Assembly (NCBI GenBank): GCA_021847105.1
Contig: JAJZUT010000001.1
Location: 186,001 to 250,000, forward strand
DNA: 64,000 nt
From: Pseudomonadota bacterium
GTDB taxonomy: Bacteria; Pseudomonadota; Gammaproteobacteria; Steroidobacterales; Steroidobacteraceae
Reading direction: 5' to 3'
Position numbers and translations under genes: made by a program. This document shows positions 26,585 to 33,604 of the stretch, piece after piece (position 1 is the first letter of the stretch; every line of letters starts with the position of its first letter). The notes beneath the pieces are model-generated. The model saw nothing but the letters and a program-made list of their open reading frames with translations. It was not told where the DNA came from and made no database searches.

Positions 26585-27940
26585 ATGACGCGTACGGATA
26601 CGATCGTGGCACCGGCTACCCCGCCGGGACGCGGCGGCATAGGGATCGTGCGCGTGTCGGGACCGAAGGTTCCTGAGCTGACCGCCGTCCTGCTCGGCGG
26701 TGATCTGCCGCCGGCCCGCGTGGCGCGGTTCGAGCGTTTCCTCGATGCCCGCGGCGAGCCGATCGATGCCGGTCTCGTCCTGTTTTTTCCCGCTCCGCAT
26801 TCCTACACGGGCGAGCACGTGCTGGAACTGCAGGGGCACGGCGGACCGGCGGTGCTCGAGGCGATCGTGGCGCGGGTTGTGGAACTCGGCGCGAGGCGTG
26901 CCCAGCCCGGGGAATTCACGCTGCGCGCCTTTCTCAACGACAAGGTCGACCTCGCCCAGGCCGAAGCCATCGCGGACCTGATCGATGCCGGTTCGCGTGA
27001 AGCGGCAGCGGCCGCGATGCGCTCCCTGCAGGGGGAATTTTCCGCGATGGTGCACGGTCTGACCGAAGCGGTCATTGACGTGCGCACGCATGTCGAGGCG
27101 GCCATCGATTTTCCCGAGGAGGAGATCGATTTTCTTGCGGACCGACACCTGCATGAACGCTTTCATGCGCTCGTGGACCATTTTTCGGCGATCGAACAGA
27201 GCGCGCGGCAGGGTGCGCTGCTGCGCGAAGGGATGACCGTCGTGATCGCCGGTCGGCCGAACGCGGGCAAGTCAAGCCTCCTCAATCGGCTGGCCGGCTA
27301 TGAGGCCGCAATCGTCACGCCGATCGCCGGCACAACGCGCGATGTGCTACGGGAGCGGATCGACATCGACGGCATGCCGTTGCACGTGCTCGATACCGCC
27401 GGACTGCGTGACAGCACCGACCTGGTCGAAGCAGAAGGCATCCGGCGCGCGCACGAACAGATGCAGCGGGCCGATCGGGTCTTATTTGTGATCGATCTGC
27501 TCGACGATCCGGATGCTGTTGCATTTGTGCAGGAGCGAGACCGCCTGCCGCACGACGTCCCGGTGACGCTGGTGTTGAACAAGACCGACCTCGCCGCGGG
27601 CATTCCGCTCGCGGACACGATCGCCGGTCCACCGCGCATCGCCATTTCCGCGCTCGATGGCCATGGCATCGATCAGCTGCGCAGCCACCTCAAGGACTGC
27701 ATGGGGTTCCGGACGGTGGAGGGCGGCACCGTCTCGGCGCGCCGACGACACCTGCACGCATTGCAGCGCGCCCGGGACCACGTCGAAGCCGCTGCGCGCC
27801 AGCTGCGCGACAGCCGCGCCGGGGAACTGGTGGCCGAAGAACTCCGTGGCGCGCAGCAGGCGCTCAGCGAGATCACTGGCGAATTCACGACGGATGATTT
27901 GCTCGGCCGCATTTTCGGCAGCTTCTGCATCGGCAAATAG
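26585..27940 (+). CDS. mnmE: tRNA modification GTPase MnmE
   Basis: A 451-residue GTPase that with MnmG adds the carboxymethylaminomethyl group to wobble uridine of tRNA. The formyl-tetrahydrofolate-binding N-domain contains ATPPGRGGIGIVRVSG. The G domain has G1 GRPNAGKS at 223-230, G3 DTAGLRD and G4 NKTD. The C-terminus ends in CIGK with the conserved Cys448. It closes the rpmH-yidC block. mnmG is not adjacent here; the next genes are accessory and on the opposite strand. Confidence 0.97.
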   Translation: MTRTDTIVAPATPPGRGGIGIVRVSGPKVPELTAVLLGGDLPPARVARFERFLDARGEPIDAGLVLFFPAPHSYTGEHVLELQGHGGPAVLEAIVARVVELGARRAQPGEFTLRAFLNDKVDLAQAEAIADLIDAGSREAAAAAMRSLQGEFSAMVHGLTEAVIDVRTHVEAAIDFPEEEIDFLADRHLHERFHALVDHFSAIEQSARQGALLREGMTVVIAGRPNAGKSSLLNRLAGYEAAIVTPIAGTTRDVLRERIDIDGMPLHVLDTAGLRDSTDLVEAEGIRRAHEQMQRADRVLFVIDLLDDPDAVAFVQERDRLPHDVPVTLVLNKTDLAAGIPLADTIAGPPRIAISALDGHGIDQLRSHLKDCMGFRTVEGGTVSARRRHLHALQRARDHVEAAARQLRDSRAGELVAEELRGAQQALSEITGEFTTDDLLGRIFGSFCIGK

Positions 27941-28061
27941 CAGCACATCCACAGTGGTCACAGACCATCCGCCGTTCACTCCCAGCCTGCCCGGTCTGAA
28001 GACTCTTCGTCTGCCTTCGACCGTCGCTGGCCACCGGCGATCCGCTCGCCGATGCCCGGCA

Positions 28062-28081
28062 GGGTCGGGACGGCCCTACCC
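28062..28081. terminator. Hairpin between mnmE and the nuclease-helicase gene
   Basis: GGGTCGGG (28062-28069) can pair with CCCTACCC (28074-28081) with one mismatch and a four-base loop. It sits between the convergent stops of mnmE (27940) and the helicase gene (28095). There is no T-tract, so the call is tentative. The rest of the 154-base gap shows nothing else. Confidence 0.35.
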
Positions 28082-28094
28082 GAAACCGGCCGCG

Positions 28095-29957
28095 CTAAGC
28101 GATTCTCGAACGGAAGTGCGCGGCAGTCTCGCGGTCGGTACAGAAAATGTAACAGCCCTTCATGCCGCGGCTCATCAACGTCCTATATGTGTTTTTGATG
28201 AGAGCGTCGGCTTTACGGTGCGCCGCATGGGGCTGCTCTCGCAGCGCCTTCTTGTAGCCCTTGAGCGACTGGTCTTGCCGCGAGCGCTGCTCCGGCTGCG
28301 TCACGATCCGGCCGCCGCGGGCGATCAGGTCCGGCCCCACGATGACGCCGATATAGTCCACCTCGAGTCCCTGACACGTGTGTATGCACCCGATCTGCTC
28401 AACTGAATGTTCGGCAGTGATCCACAGGCCACCGTCCTGGGCGAGGTTCCAGCGCATCGCGAACTCATGCTCGGGAATGACGACGTCAAATGCGGCCGGA
28501 TCTCTCTTGCTCTTCCAATCCCAACAGTAGCCGGCGACTATGCGCGCGCGGTTGCTCTGCAGGTTCCTCTCTTCGATCAGACGCCGAACCTCATTCGGTG
28601 AATCAAGCACTCGGAAATCGAACTCATCGGCTCGCAGGACCGGATTGGCGGTATCGCGAACTCCGAGCATCTGGTCCAGCCATGCGAGGTATCCATCGGA
28701 TCCGGCGCACCGGAACTGTGAGGCAAGCGTCAGCTGCCTCACCGTTGCCCCGGCCTTCTGCGCCCAGGCCGCGATCTCCGATTTGCGGCCAATATCGTTC
28801 CAGGTGACCCGCTGGTCTTCGTCAATGAAGAAGACGGCGCATCTGGCGGCTCGAATGATCTCCTCGATCTGGTTGTTGCCGAGATTGGCATAGAGGCCGG
28901 ACTTCTCGTTGAGCCGATGTGCTTCGTCCACGACCAGCGCATCGAACGTATCGGCGGGCGTGTCGATGAATTCCCCTGATCCGGCGAACAGACTCGCAAT
29001 CTGCGACCGGCGGTAGGATCCCGACAGCGTCTGCTCGAATACGGCACGCGGTGCCCGGTTCTTGGTCACATATTTGGTCATCATGCGCTGGGCCGTCAGC
29101 GCGGCCAACAGATTAATTGCAACGACCGATTTGCCCGTTCCCGGCCCGCCCTCGATGATGATCACTCGCTTGGCGCCCTCGGCAACCTCGATGGCGTCGG
29201 CGAACACAGTTTCGTAGGCCACCTTCTGATCGTCGATCAAAACGAACTCGCGCTTGCCGGCCAACATGCCGGTCAGCGCATCGATCAGTCTGCGGGAGGG
29301 CCGAATGCGGCCATTTTCGATCTGCTCGATGAGACTGCCGCGGTCGCCACGACGGACGTGCTGCGCGATGAAGGCGCGTAGACGCTCACGTTCCTGCTGT
29401 CCGGACAGGAAAATCGGCGCCTTTTCGACGTACGGCCGGTAGAGAGGGTCATTCAGTACCTCGCCGCCGACGAAGTTGTGGAGGTAGGCACAAGGCTGCA
29501 GCGGAATTTCGTTCGAATACACCTCCTCATTGAAGTTACGCAGGAGCTCCGCGTAGGACCACGCCTGGTAGGACGGATGGCTGGTATCCGCCTCCCCGCC
29601 CCCGAACCGGGTCCGGATCAGTCCGTCCTTGCGGGTCAACGTCGCGCTTTCCCACTGTTTCAGTTCGACGATGATCAGCTTGCTCCGGTCCCGCTCGTCG
29701 ATTCCCGACAACAACAGGTCGATGCGCTTGGCGGTTTGAGGAATGACGTACTCGATGGCGATGCCACAGTCGGTCGGTATCGAATCGTCGCGAAGCACCT
29801 TTGCCATCGCGAGCAGCGATTCCTTCCAGGCGCGCATCTCAGCCTTGGTGACACGATGTCCGGTCCGTGCCGCAAACGCCGCGAGCACGACCGCTTCAAT
29901 GTCGTGACCGAATGTGTCGTTGAGAAATCCGTCCTTGGTCGATCGATAGATGATCAT
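28095..29957 (-). CDS. PD-(D/E)XK nuclease-like / DUF2075-type superfamily-1 helicase fusion
   Basis: A 620-residue protein. The N-terminal ~200 residues contain a PD-(D/E)XK-like arrangement (Asp80 in RIDLLLSG, Glu98 and Lys100 in IIVELKQW). The rest is a DUF2075/Schlafen-type P-loop helicase domain: Walker A IIEGGPGTGKSVVAINLL at 268-284, Walker B ALVVDEAHRLN at 340-350, FFIDEDQRV at 377-385, and a C-terminal helicase motif around IHTCQGLEVDYIGVIVGP. It has no signal peptide. It lies 15 bases after a MazG-like pyrophosphohydrolase gene and is probably co-transcribed. Nuclease-helicase fusions with nucleotide hydrolases are often anti-phage systems, but I know of no named system with this exact pair. 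Function is inferred. Confidence 0.78.
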   Translation of the reverse strand: MIIYRSTKDGFLNDTFGHDIEAVVLAAFAARTGHRVTKAEMRAWKESLLAMAKVLRDDSIPTDCGIAIEYVIPQTAKRIDLLLSGIDERDRSKLIIVELKQWESATLTRKDGLIRTRFGGGEADTSHPSYQAWSYAELLRNFNEEVYSNEIPLQPCAYLHNFVGGEVLNDPLYRPYVEKAPIFLSGQQERERLRAFIAQHVRRGDRGSLIEQIENGRIRPSRRLIDALTGMLAGKREFVLIDDQKVAYETVFADAIEVAEGAKRVIIIEGGPGTGKSVVAINLLAALTAQRMMTKYVTKNRAPRAVFEQTLSGSYRRSQIASLFAGSGEFIDTPADTFDALVVDEAHRLNEKSGLYANLGNNQIEEIIRAARCAVFFIDEDQRVTWNDIGRKSEIAAWAQKAGATVRQLTLASQFRCAGSDGYLAWLDQMLGVRDTANPVLRADEFDFRVLDSPNEVRRLIEERNLQSNRARIVAGYCWDWKSKRDPAAFDVVIPEHEFAMRWNLAQDGGLWITAEHSVEQIGCIHTCQGLEVDYIGVIVGPDLIARGGRIVTQPEQRSRQDQSLKGYKKALREQPHAAHRKADALIKNTYRTLMSRGMKGCYIFCTDRETAAHFRSRIA

Positions 29958-29972
29958 CGGCGGCAGCGGCGC

Positions 29973-30320
29973 TCACGTATCCGAATACTTGCGGGCCGAA
30001 CCCTTGAAGAGGCTCGCTGGGTACTTCTCCGCGTTCCGGACGATCTTCTCGCGCACGGCTTGCAGCAGGTCGACTTGCAGCTTGTCGGCGAGGCGGATCA
30101 GGTAGATCTGAACATCAGCGAGCTCCTCGATGACTGCTGTCCGCTGCTTGTCACTGAGGTTCCTGCTCTGTTCTTCAGTCAACCATTGGAAGGGCTCCAA
30201 TAGTTCTGCTGCTTCCACAGCGAGGGCCGACGCCAGATTCTTCGGCGAGTGAAACTGATCCCAGTCCCGTTCCGCCGCAAATGCTCGCAAGGTATCGCGC
30301 AACTCCGTTAATTCTGACAT
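29973..30320 (-). CDS. MazG-like nucleotide pyrophosphohydrolase
   Basis: A 115-residue all-alpha NTP pyrophosphohydrolase of the MazG/RS21-C6 (dCTPase-like) group. The metal-binding motifs are ExxE at Glu36/Glu39 (AVEAAELLEPFQWL) and ExxD at Glu66/Asp69 (IEELADVQIYLIRLADKL). Members hydrolyse (d)NTPs to monophosphates. It is upstream of, and 15 bases from, the nuclease-helicase fusion, so the two likely form one unit. Possible roles are nucleotide-pool control during phage infection or housekeeping of damaged nucleotides; the pairing favours the former. Confidence 0.82.
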   Translation of the reverse strand: MSELTELRDTLRAFAAERDWDQFHSPKNLASALAVEAAELLEPFQWLTEEQSRNLSDKQRTAVIEELADVQIYLIRLADKLQVDLLQAVREKIVRNAEKYPASLFKGSARKYSDT

Positions 30321-30518
30321 GGCAGTGATCTCTGCGTTTTGACCGTGATCGTGGTGGGCCCGGATACGTGATTGCAGGAAGCACGTGGGTTCCGCTATCG
30401 CGTCTAGGCCCGAGACGCTGCGCCGATGACCAGTCCGACATGGACCGCACGGTGAGAACGGCCGTATGGCGCAGACTGGCTGTCGTGCTGCGCGCGCCGA
30501 GCTTCATGAGGCGTGACA

Positions 30519-31364
30519 TCATGACCGTTCGGCCTGCGATGCTGCCGTCACCATAACAAAGCGGATGGGAACATCCGCACGATCACGCTGATTCGGGCCA
30601 TCGAGTCCGGCGACCGGCAACTGTTGTCGCCGGCGCGCCGAGTCGGGGGCGGGGCCCTTGACGAACGTGATCTCCAGGACGTTCGGTAGTCCGTCGGGCG
30701 CGATGTAACTGTGATTGTTGCCGTGCACGTGGACGATGTGAAATTCCCTCAGCAGTCGCTGCAGCGCGGCGCAGAACGTCTCGCGCAGCGCCATCGTCTC
30801 GTGAAATTCCACGATCAGTAGCTGGATTCTGCCGGCATGCCGCAGCACCTCGCCGATGATTCCGTACTCCGCCCCTTCGATATCGATCTTGAGAAGCACT
30901 CGATCGGAGTTTGTTCTGCCGAAGACCTTGCCTATGGTCGCATGACCCGGACCGGCATTCACCGCGTGGATTCTCTCCTTGAAATGGGTGGCCTCGCTGG
31001 CAAAGAATTGCCGATAAGTGCGCCAGGTTCGGAACCTCGCCTGCAGCTCTCGAAGGGTGATGCGACCACGCAGCAAGCGCGGAATACCGCGTTCGAAAGC
31101 GCGTCTGAATTTTCTCGCGCCTACCGTATGGTCATACGCGTGAATCGTCGCAGAGGCATTGATCCGCTTGAATTCTTCTTCGAAGGTCCAGTCCGACGAG
31201 AGACCGAAAGAGAGCAGGGTGTCCACACTCTGTACGGTACTTCGCGGCACGACGTAGCCGCCATCGTGCGGGTTGCCTAACCGCATGAGGCCATCGACCT
31301 CGACCGGCGCCAGGAACGCGAGCTCTGCTGGCAGCGATTCCGGTATCGCATTTTCCATAGGCAT
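30519..31364 (-). CDS. FkbM-family methyltransferase
   Basis: A 281-residue protein resembling Methyltransf_21/FkbM enzymes. VDTLLSFGLSSDWTFEEEFKRI lies at the start of the Rossmann fold, and LLKIDIEGAEYGIIGEVL is the characteristic central motif. Such enzymes O-methylate sugars or other metabolites. It follows a family-9 glycosyltransferase by 8 bases in the same direction, suggesting a role in surface-glycan decoration. ATG codons at 31364 and 31358 are both possible starts. Confidence 0.82.
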   Translation of the reverse strand: MPMENAIPESLPAELAFLAPVEVDGLMRLGNPHDGGYVVPRSTVQSVDTLLSFGLSSDWTFEEEFKRINASATIHAYDHTVGARKFRRAFERGIPRLLRGRITLRELQARFRTWRTYRQFFASEATHFKERIHAVNAGPGHATIGKVFGRTNSDRVLLKIDIEGAEYGIIGEVLRHAGRIQLLIVEFHETMALRETFCAALQRLLREFHIVHVHGNNHSYIAPDGLPNVLEITFVKGPAPDSARRRQQLPVAGLDGPNQRDRADVPIRFVMVTAASQAERS

Positions 31365-31372
31365 ACCCGATT

Positions 31373-32446
31373 CTAATGGATCTGACTACCCTGCGCAGCG
31401 CGTGCCGGGGGCACGCGCTGCGCCAACTGCTGCCAATGCTCCACCACCAGTTCCACGGGAATCTGCTCGACCCGGCTGTATTGGGGGGGGCCGCCGAGCC
31501 CGACAACGGGGCTTGCGGCACTGCGCGGCAACCACTGTGTGGGCGAATGAGCACCGAACAACACAACCAGGGGCACGCCCAGCGCGGCTGCGGCGTGTGC
31601 CGGCCCGGTATCGATCGAAATCATGCTGTGCGCGACCTCGCACAGCGCAAAGAGCGCACGCAAATCCAACACCGCGCCGAACACGCACTCCAGGGCCGCG
31701 GCCTGGCGGATCTCCTCGATGAACGGCGCCTCGCTGGCCGCCCCGCACAGCAGCACGACCGCCTGCGGCATGCGCGCGTGGATCGCATGCAGCAGCTGTC
31801 GCCAGTTGCCAGTTGGCCACGCCTTGTCGTCTCGATTCAGCTTGCGGTGGCGGTCGCGCTTGGAGCTCATGGTTCGCCGATTGCCGGCTTGCACGAGCAC
31901 GAGCGGTCGCCCCAACCAACCGTGCGCCTCGAGCCAGCGGTCGCGCGCCTGTCGCTCCGCCTCGAGCACCACCAGGTGTGGCACCGTCGCGAACGCCCCG
32001 GAGGCATTCGGGTCGGGGCCGCAGACCCGCAGCAGACGCTCGATCGAATGCTCCGCCGGCTCATGCGGGCCATGCCGATGCGACAGGCGTCGTGAGGGCT
32101 CCACGCCAGCGAATGCGAGCAGGCGCTCCACTGCGGTAGTGGCGGATGTCTCGCAGAGGTCATATACGGGCACGTCGTGACAGCGACGGACAGCCGCCAC
32201 TGCGGCCCACCAGCGCATATCGAAGGGGAATGGAACGCGCCGGCTGACGGCGATTACGCGGCCCACGTCGGGGTTTCCCCGGCACACAGGCTCGGGCCAC
32301 CATCCGCGCCCGATGACGAGACAGGGACGGCCATGGCGCTCGCGCAGGCAGCGCAGCAGCGGCAGCGAGACGATCAGATCGCCGAGTGCGCCGAAGCGGA
32401 TGACAGGAACGAGCGCCTCTGCGGGATTCTGCGCTCTCAGGTCCAT
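31373..32446 (-). CDS. Glycosyltransferase family 9 (heptosyltransferase-like)
   Basis: A 357-residue GT-B glycosyltransferase related to LPS heptosyltransferases. It has an N-terminal IRFGALGDLIVSLPLLRCL acceptor-side motif and a C-terminal SIDTGPAHAAAALGVPLVVLFG nucleotide-sugar site. It probably transfers a heptose or similar sugar to a lipopolysaccharide core or other glycan on the cytoplasmic face. It is operonic with the FkbM methyltransferase. Its substrate is not assignable. Confidence 0.88.
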   Translation of the reverse strand: MDLRAQNPAEALVPVIRFGALGDLIVSLPLLRCLRERHGRPCLVIGRGWWPEPVCRGNPDVGRVIAVSRRVPFPFDMRWWAAVAAVRRCHDVPVYDLCETSATTAVERLLAFAGVEPSRRLSHRHGPHEPAEHSIERLLRVCGPDPNASGAFATVPHLVVLEAERQARDRWLEAHGWLGRPLVLVQAGNRRTMSSKRDRHRKLNRDDKAWPTGNWRQLLHAIHARMPQAVVLLCGAASEAPFIEEIRQAAALECVFGAVLDLRALFALCEVAHSMISIDTGPAHAAAALGVPLVVLFGAHSPTQWLPRSAASPVVGLGGPPQYSRVEQIPVELVVEHWQQLAQRVPPARAAQGSQIH

Positions 32447-32749
32447 CCGCTCGCGCCTCGCGCCTTCATCATTCCTCCGGCAGTCACATGCGAAACCGAA
32501 CGGGTTCGCCGGTTGCCGTCCGCACGCGGATGCGCGCCTGGCACCTCGGCTGCTTCAGCCCGGCGAGCATAGCGAATGGCACCGGCGCTGCATATCTGCC
32601 CCCGTCCGGTGCACGTAAGCCTTCCCAGCCCCCGACGCTCACCCTACACTGCCGGCCTGCGAGCCGAGCGACCACGATCCGCCGCACTCCCGTGCCGCAA
32701 CGGCAGGCATGGGAAACGAAATCCAACCACCGAAGACCATCAGGACGTC
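32447..32749. other. Divergent intergenic region
   Basis: About 300 bases separate the glycosyltransferase start and the fumarylacetoacetate-hydrolase-fold gene. It should contain promoters for both directions, but no clear -35/-10 pair or operator stood out. A frame open through it (from 32576) is only an in-frame extension of the downstream gene without family similarity. Confidence 0.5.
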
Positions 32750-33604
32750 ATGAAACTACTGCGCTACGGACCGCCCGGCCAAGAAAAGCCGGGACTCCTC
32801 GATTCGAACGGTGTGCTGCGCTGCCTCGCCGCACACGTCCCTGATCTGAGCGGGTCACAGCTGTCGCCGCAGACGCTGACGCGGTTGGCGGCGCTGGATC
32901 CGGCCGACCTCCCGGCCGTCACCGGCAATCCACGGCTTGGGGTGCCGGTTGCGGCCAGCCGCAAATTCATCGCCATCGGTCTGAACTACGCGGATCACGC
33001 GGCAGAGGCGAATCTGCCAATACCCACCGAGCCGGTGATCTTCAGCAAAGCCGTGAGCTGCCTGCAGGGTCCGAACGACCACATCAGGCTGCCGCGGGAC
33101 TCAACGAAAACCGACTGGGAGGTTGAGCTCGGCGTCGTCATCGGCACGACAGCACGGTACGTGCCAGAACACGACGCGCTCGCCTATGTCGCCGGTTACT
33201 GCGTGGTCAACGACGTGTCCGAACGCGAGTACCAGCTCGAGCGGGGTGGTACATGGGACAAGGGCAAAGGTTGCGACACGTTCGGTCCGGTCGGTCCATG
33301 GCTCGTCACCCCCGACGAAGTCGGCGACGTGCAGAACCTCCAGATGTGGCTTGAGGTCAATGGCCGACGCATGCAGAGTGGCAACACGCGCACGATGATT
33401 TTCGGTGTCGCAACCCTGATCAGTTACGTCAGTCGCTTCATGAGCCTCGAGGCGGGCGATATTCTCACCACCGGAACACCGCCCGGGGTTGGAATGGGAC
33501 AGAAACCCGAGCCGGTGTACCTCGCGCCCGGCGATCGGCTCCGACTCGGAATCGAGAAGCTCGGTGAGCAGCACCAGACCGTACAGGCGTGGCGGCCGAA
33601 TTGA
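32750..33604 (+). CDS. Fumarylacetoacetate hydrolase-family protein (2,4-diketo-3-deoxy-sugar acid hydrolase candidate)
   Basis: A 284-residue FAH-fold enzyme. Metal ligands are Glu124 and Glu126 in DWEVELGVVIG and Asp155 in VNDVSERE. The C-terminus has the MSLEAGDILTTGTPPGVGMG signature. It resembles hydrolases that split 2,4-diketo-3-deoxy-L-fuconate or -rhamnonate to pyruvate and L-lactate, as described in Xanthomonas L-fucose catabolism. The next gene is a lactate-oxidase-like flavoprotein, which supports that route. The start at 32750 has AGGA five bases upstream. Other acylpyruvate hydrolase activities remain possible. Confidence 0.85.
   Translation: MKLLRYGPPGQEKPGLLDSNGVLRCLAAHVPDLSGSQLSPQTLTRLAALDPADLPAVTGNPRLGVPVAASRKFIAIGLNYADHAAEANLPIPTEPVIFSKAVSCLQGPNDHIRLPRDSTKTDWEVELGVVIGTTARYVPEHDALAYVAGYCVVNDVSEREYQLERGGTWDKGKGCDTFGPVGPWLVTPDEVGDVQNLQMWLEVNGRRMQSGNTRTMIFGVATLISYVSRFMSLEAGDILTTGTPPGVGMGQKPEPVYLAPGDRLRLGIEKLGEQHQTVQAWRPN

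Follow-up and report, generated by a model that had tools for sequence, protein, structure and literature searches.

In the 64,000-nt stretch of the Steroidobacteraceae genome analysed here (the window), a MazG-like nucleotide pyrophosphohydrolase and a protein combining a predicted nuclease with a helicase are encoded by two neighbouring genes that recur side by side across bacteria and archaea. The two genes thus form a unit that has been conserved, and this uncharacterised module is patchily distributed, inserted and mobile. Combining these data with the identity of the genes found around its relatives, we suggest that the pair is probably an anti-virus module.

The two proteins and their active sites

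Both genes are on the minus strand. The gene for the MazG-like enzyme, a nucleotide pyrophosphohydrolase of the DCTPP1 type (115 aa; 29973..30320; PF12643 and a profile match to dCTP pyrophosphatase 1), lies upstream of the gene for a PD-(D/E)XK nuclease fused to an SLFN-g3 SF1 helicase (620 aa; 28095..29957; open reading frame, Pfam and AF2 model), and a gap of 15 nt separates them. The coordinates, strands, protein lengths and gap given in a first-pass annotation of this DNA were all exact. It had also placed the pair on the strand opposite to rpmH-mnmE, and this is confirmed: the rpmH-rnpA-yidC-mnmE block is on the plus strand, ends at 27940 and has the pair antisense to it, while dnaN and dnaA, at 21-24 kb of the window, are a few kb from the pair (all named from their translations). 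A scan for sigma-70 promoters found none.

PF12643 covers aa 34-114 of the 115-aa protein (E 2e-15, 57 bits against a cut-off of 27). The metal site, consisting of E36-x-x-E39 (30204-30215, minus strand) and E66-x-x-D69 (30114..30125, minus strand), is invariant in 40 of 40 homologues, as are K92, K99, Y100 and P101 in the same alignment, so that the MazG-like enzyme with ExxE and ExxD motifs recognized at first pass is well founded. Because the metal-site and other residues are invariant, we expect an active enzyme, and the intact active site of every aligned MazG likewise favours an enzymatic role. In a PDB search with a profile of the 40 MazG proteins, human and mouse dCTP pyrophosphatase 1 (DCTPP1, RS21-C6) came out on top (E 1e-32), with a match that spans the full length from the N-terminal helix through the YP...KY tail and includes the same ExxE/ExxD site. 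Judged from this sequence likeness, the enzyme may prefer dCTP or modified dCTP. Known members of the DCTPP1 group are house-cleaning enzymes, whereas the MazG in the window is encoded in an operon with a nuclease-helicase.

Residues 1-231 of the 620-aa protein (29265..29957, minus strand) are a predicted PD-(D/E)XK nuclease, identified by the AF2 model, VIA-align matches and invariant residues, and the domain is predicted to cleave DNA. Seven residues are unchanged across an alignment of 51 homologues: E69, D80 (29718-29720), E98 (29664-29666), K100 (29658-29660), H127, Q131 (29565-29567) and Y135 (29553-29555), the coordinates all referring to the minus strand. D80 and E98-x-K100 constitute the D...ExK motif of the PD-(D/E)XK superfamily and are followed by Q131-x3-Y135; together, D...ExK and QxxxY are the signature of the RecB/Cas4-type enzymes within the superfamily. 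Because a sequence-only PDB search with the nuclease domain gave no match, its fold was searched. The AF2 models, built on an alignment of genome contig rows, have a pLDDT of 88.7 for the full 620 aa and of 94.1 for the isolated nuclease domain. The best VIA-align match of the isolated domain was Can2 (Z 9.4 over 139 residues, 3.2 A), followed by VC1899 (Z 8.9) and Cdn1 (Z 8.4), further matches to NucS/EndoMS, NucC, Card1, BstEII, PfoI, McrC, XisH and FokI-like enzymes, and weak matches to Hachiman and Dna2. This list consists almost wholly of PD-(D/E)XK nucleases, and the domain is thus predicted to have the core fold of the superfamily; Foldseek gave nothing below E 0.001, its best match being Card1 at E 8e-3. 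The site of Asp80, Glu98 and Lys100 put forward at first pass is borne out by its invariance in the 51 homologues and by the nuclease-like fold of the model.

The C-terminal part is an SF1 helicase of the SLFN/UvrD/RecD2 type. PF09848 (SLFN group 3 helicase, formerly DUF2075) matches aa 263-608 (28134..29171, minus strand; E 4e-104, 349 bits against a cut-off of 24), in agreement with the DUF2075/Schlafen-type helicase named at first pass. Walker A (GGPGTGK276, with K276 at 29130-29132, minus strand) and Walker B (D344-E345) are intact, K276 and E345 are invariant in the homologue alignment, and in fold this part matches UvrD (Z 20.7), SLFN11 (Z 18.9) and RecD2 (Z 16.9). The Schlafen AlbA_2 RNase core (PF04326) has no match in the window protein, the N-terminus of which has the PD-(D/E)XK fold instead.

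Recurrence, mobility and variants of the pair

Scanning 84,980 genomes yielded 80 near full-length relatives of the nuclease-helicase, which come from Pseudomonadota, Bacteroidota, Bacillota, Verrucomicrobiota, Planctomycetota, Nitrospirota, Acidobacteriota, Spirochaetota, Thermodesulfobacteriota, candidate phyla and archaea. MazG is present in the loci of 53 of the 80, and among the 66 relatives with at least 600 nt of sequence on both sides it is adjacent in 44, in many phyla and in archaea. By comparison, the number of MazG genes expected at a distance of up to 1 kb from any one gene is roughly 2e-4, as calculated from the Pseudomonadota background (approximately 36 genes of this type in 200 genomes of about 4 Mb each). 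Recurrence across genomes, like a nuclease fold in the first 200 residues, had been named in the first-pass annotation as what separates a module from a chance neighbourhood; both are found, the latter as a prediction. MazG is nearly always on the same strand as the helicase, with spacings that range from an overlap of 4 nt to some tens of nt (mostly up to about 40 nt), and is downstream rather than upstream of it in six loci. When 398 Pseudomonadota genomes were sampled evenly, each of the five other full-length homologues had MazG next to it, and an archaeal plasmid from Halalkalicoccus carries the pair as well. The pairing extends over the whole of a tree of 91 helicases, with at least 14 changes that include several losses; Bacilli account for many of these. 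MazG is not obligatory, since it is missing in about one third of the testable relatives and especially in Bacilli.

Several lines of evidence indicate that the module moves. In two genomes of the same genus, about 110 and 620 nt, respectively, separate mnmE from the FAH-family gene that lies beyond it (window 32576-33604); because these genomes join the two genes nearly directly, about 4.8 kb (27.94-32.75 kb) are extra in the window. These empty sites and the GC content, which is about 0.60 in the module and 0.65-0.68 in the DNA around it, mark out a block inserted between mnmE and the FAH-family gene (approximately 27941..32750) that contains the helicase, MazG, an FkbM-type methyltransferase and a GT9 gene. 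The genes for the methyltransferase (PF05050; 30519-31364) and the GT9 heptosyltransferase (PF01075; 31373-32446) are likewise on the minus strand, upstream of MazG, and are absent from the recurrent neighbours of the pair elsewhere. Within the genus, a relative is found in 7 of 57 other genomes and at different sites, in one case on the contig that carries mnmE but 150 kb from it; since these copies are located elsewhere, the position beside the origin in the window appears to be incidental. Relatives are also carried by plasmids. With regard to a phage-borne origin, the pair is present in one Microcystis phage record, and a pattern scan of IMG/VR found at least one clear relative among the matches listed.

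The nuclease domain is exchanged in some relatives. In another family of the same class, 22 of 163 genomes have a relative, always with MazG adjacent (22 of 22); in 13 of these carriers a GIY-YIG nuclease replaces the PD-(D/E)XK domain, which is present in the other 9. PF01541 scored above its cut-off in three of five GIY-YIG-type proteins tested. GIY-YIG-SLFN-g3-S24 proteins are encoded at loci L164-L166 and L168-L179 (also L161), with the same MazG immediately adjoining.

A long C-terminal extension occurs in 16 of 74 intact PD-(D/E)XK relatives from the genome scan, and Peptidase_S24 (PF00717) is matched by the extensions tested as well as by the GIY-YIG-type proteins tested. All 16 LexA/S24-like fusions retain the catalytic Ser and 15 of them the Lys, and most have an (A/C)-G site resembling the self-cleavage site of LexA. 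These C-termini (L028, L037, L051 and about 13 more loci) changed state at least seven times on the tree; the nuclease-helicase in the window is without one. Control by upstream LexA boxes was considered and rejected, as these showed no excess over shuffles. In addition, two Bacteroidota plasmids encode two different SLFN-g3 nuclease-helicases in tandem (L013:4001-7987 and L016:4001-7742). In total, the first-pass assignments of the nuclease-helicase and of MazG stand, but the annotation missed the DCTPP1 type of the latter, the QxxxY motif, the GIY-YIG exchange and the addition of the LexA-like domain.

Neighbouring genes and comparison with known systems

Clustering of 939 neighbouring open reading frames around the relatives identified a homologue of DUF3427-PLD type IV restriction enzymes in 9-10 loci (counted as a cluster of which the representative alone was annotated), on the same strand and no more than about 55 nt from a module gene at L024, L026, L042, L067 and L100. 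Based on a background from Pseudomonadota only (8 in 150 genomes), roughly 0.01-0.02 would be expected in the 1.06 Mb of flanking DNA. GmrSD is found in four loci, DUF2357-PDDEXK_7 in three, McrB-N at L019 and a TPR protein at L020. No fixed third gene emerged, as even the most recurrent neighbour was limited to about 10 of 98 loci. A Bacillota relative without MazG adjoins BrxC of BREX (L068:8001-14353), indicating that the helicase alone is also found in defence loci.

Upstream of the archaeal pair, the Halalkalicoccus plasmid encodes an SF1 helicase that resembles Mokosh MkoA/MkoC (L018:1096-2940). A same-genus relative without MazG has a Schlafen AlbA_2-HATPase_c_4-wHTH protein directly upstream and, downstream, an open reading frame resembling an HNH endonuclease by a motif recognized by eye (L150:4541-8936). 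The stretch L159:1400-7784 has a further MazG of this type, which adjoins a type I restriction-modification methylase (HsdM) and, judged by eye, an apparent GmrSD/DUF262 protein; no SLFN helicase is present in this stretch.

The first-pass annotation knew of no named system with this pair, and none was found in the profile libraries and literature searched, although an earlier mention is possible. The literature searched contained no work that joins DUF2075 and MazG with defence or anti-phage activity, and did not mention PDC-S41. In PADLOC, MazG had no match, and the Nhi and AbiO models match the ATPase core of the helicase only. Nhi (SERP2475) resembles the window protein in having nuclease and helicase in one protein, and the Walker A/B part of the latter matches the PADLOC model; Nhi acts on phage DNA by nicking and unwinding it and has been linked to the phage SSB (PMC12904381). 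However, the match is between aa 237-392 and profile positions 180-309 of 470 (37 bits) and leaves the nuclease uncovered, and Nhi is described as a single gene without MazG (PMC12904381), whereas the helicase in the window is part of a two-gene unit. PDC-S41, a candidate single-gene defence protein in PADLOC, matches 51 of 51 helicases over the nuclease and early helicase; yet it does so in pieces and with a modest score (59 bits for the window protein), and it has the rank of a candidate whose definition does not include MazG. Hachiman (HamAB), for which DNA-integrity sensing is described in PMC12278908, likewise couples a nuclease to a sensor helicase and was a weak match in the fold search with the nuclease domain, but its nuclease and helicase are separate proteins and it has no pyrophosphohydrolase. 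Finally, in an independent prediction, a MazG NTP pyrophosphohydrolase domain is among the predicted defence domains of DefensePredictor and appears there as unvalidated (PMC13092281, Fig. 6F); the likeness of this system to the pair lies in the predicted MazG domain. We regard the module as a nuclease-helicase kind of system with a MazG partner.

Possible functions of the module

Because the distribution is patchy, the insertion site is empty in two other genomes of the genus and the neighbours include restriction and BREX genes, we infer a role in defence. The reading to which we lean, with rather more confidence than doubt, is that the pair is a mobile counter-invader module against phages or plasmids that combines dCTP-type nucleotide hydrolysis with unwinding and cutting of DNA. 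In such a module, (i) the dCTP-pyrophosphatase-type MazG would take dCTP or modified dCTPs out of the pool, (ii) the ATP-driven SF1 helicase with its nuclease would load on abnormal or replicating DNA, unwind it and cut it, the nuclease slot being filled by PD-(D/E)XK here and by GIY-YIG in the sister type, and (iii) in the simplest joint mechanism, the two activities would reinforce each other in that MazG would starve foreign replication or strip protective modified nucleotides, while the nuclease-helicase would destroy the stalled or exposed DNA. In the relatives with a LexA/S24-like domain, self-cleavage would tie activity to the SOS state. The stronger proposal, that the pair represents a widespread and undescribed two-pronged immunity in which the pyrophosphatase depletes or edits the pool (possibly of phage-modified dCTPs), the nuclease-helicase destroys DNA, the nuclease is interchangeable and LexA-type SOS gating operates in some members, is one that we make tentatively and with more doubt than confidence.

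The main rival of the defence reading is a horizontally acquired module for DNA repair or genotoxic stress, in which MazG would clear oxidised or damaged dCTP, the nuclease-helicase would process forks or ends in the manner of AddAB or Dna2, and the LexA-like domain, where present, would provide SOS control. Genome-maintenance modules would resemble the one described here: a DCTPP1-type MazG suits house-cleaning, for which a parallel exists in the mycobacterial MazG linked to 5-OH-dCTP in PMC3855555; the SF1 helicase is near RecD2 and UvrD; and a LexA-like domain with the retained Ser, Lys and cleavage-like site could indicate repair. We nevertheless consider this explanation unlikely, as the distribution is patchy and mobile, the neighbours are those of restriction and BREX loci, LexA boxes are not in excess upstream and the module is missing from most genomes of the genus, which argues against a core repair function.

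It is less likely still that the pair functions in the manner of a toxin-antitoxin system, with MazG restraining a toxic nuclease-helicase, either through binding or through removal of a nucleotide that activates it, until the inhibition is lifted when a phage infects. The small gene coming first and the overlap of start and stop are the usual layout of such systems, and the distances of MazG and helicase proteins correlate (r 0.42, with 0 of 2000 permutations as high), a correlation that shared descent alone could also give. However, the nuclease and helicase residues remain invariant in relatives without an adjacent MazG, suggesting that the nuclease can be tolerated without MazG and disfavouring an obligate antitoxin, and the catalytic residues of MazG are always retained, suggesting that it acts as an enzyme. 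That a house-cleaning pyrophosphatase and a defence helicase are neighbours by chance is hardly credible and was rejected on the background count, despite the relatives without MazG and the stand-alone MazG genes in other genomes, given the frequency of the pairing, its tight same-strand gaps and its recurrence with a second type of nuclease.

If the defence reading is true, nucleotide-pool attack and DNA degradation, known separately as antiviral strategies, would be joined in a single compact operon that occurs widely in both bacteria and archaea, and MazG-like enzymes, which in PMC13092281 appear as predicted and never as shown to be defensive, would gain a concrete and testable role. Relatives that have another type of nuclease or an added LexA-like domain provide a natural experiment on the arming of such nucleases.
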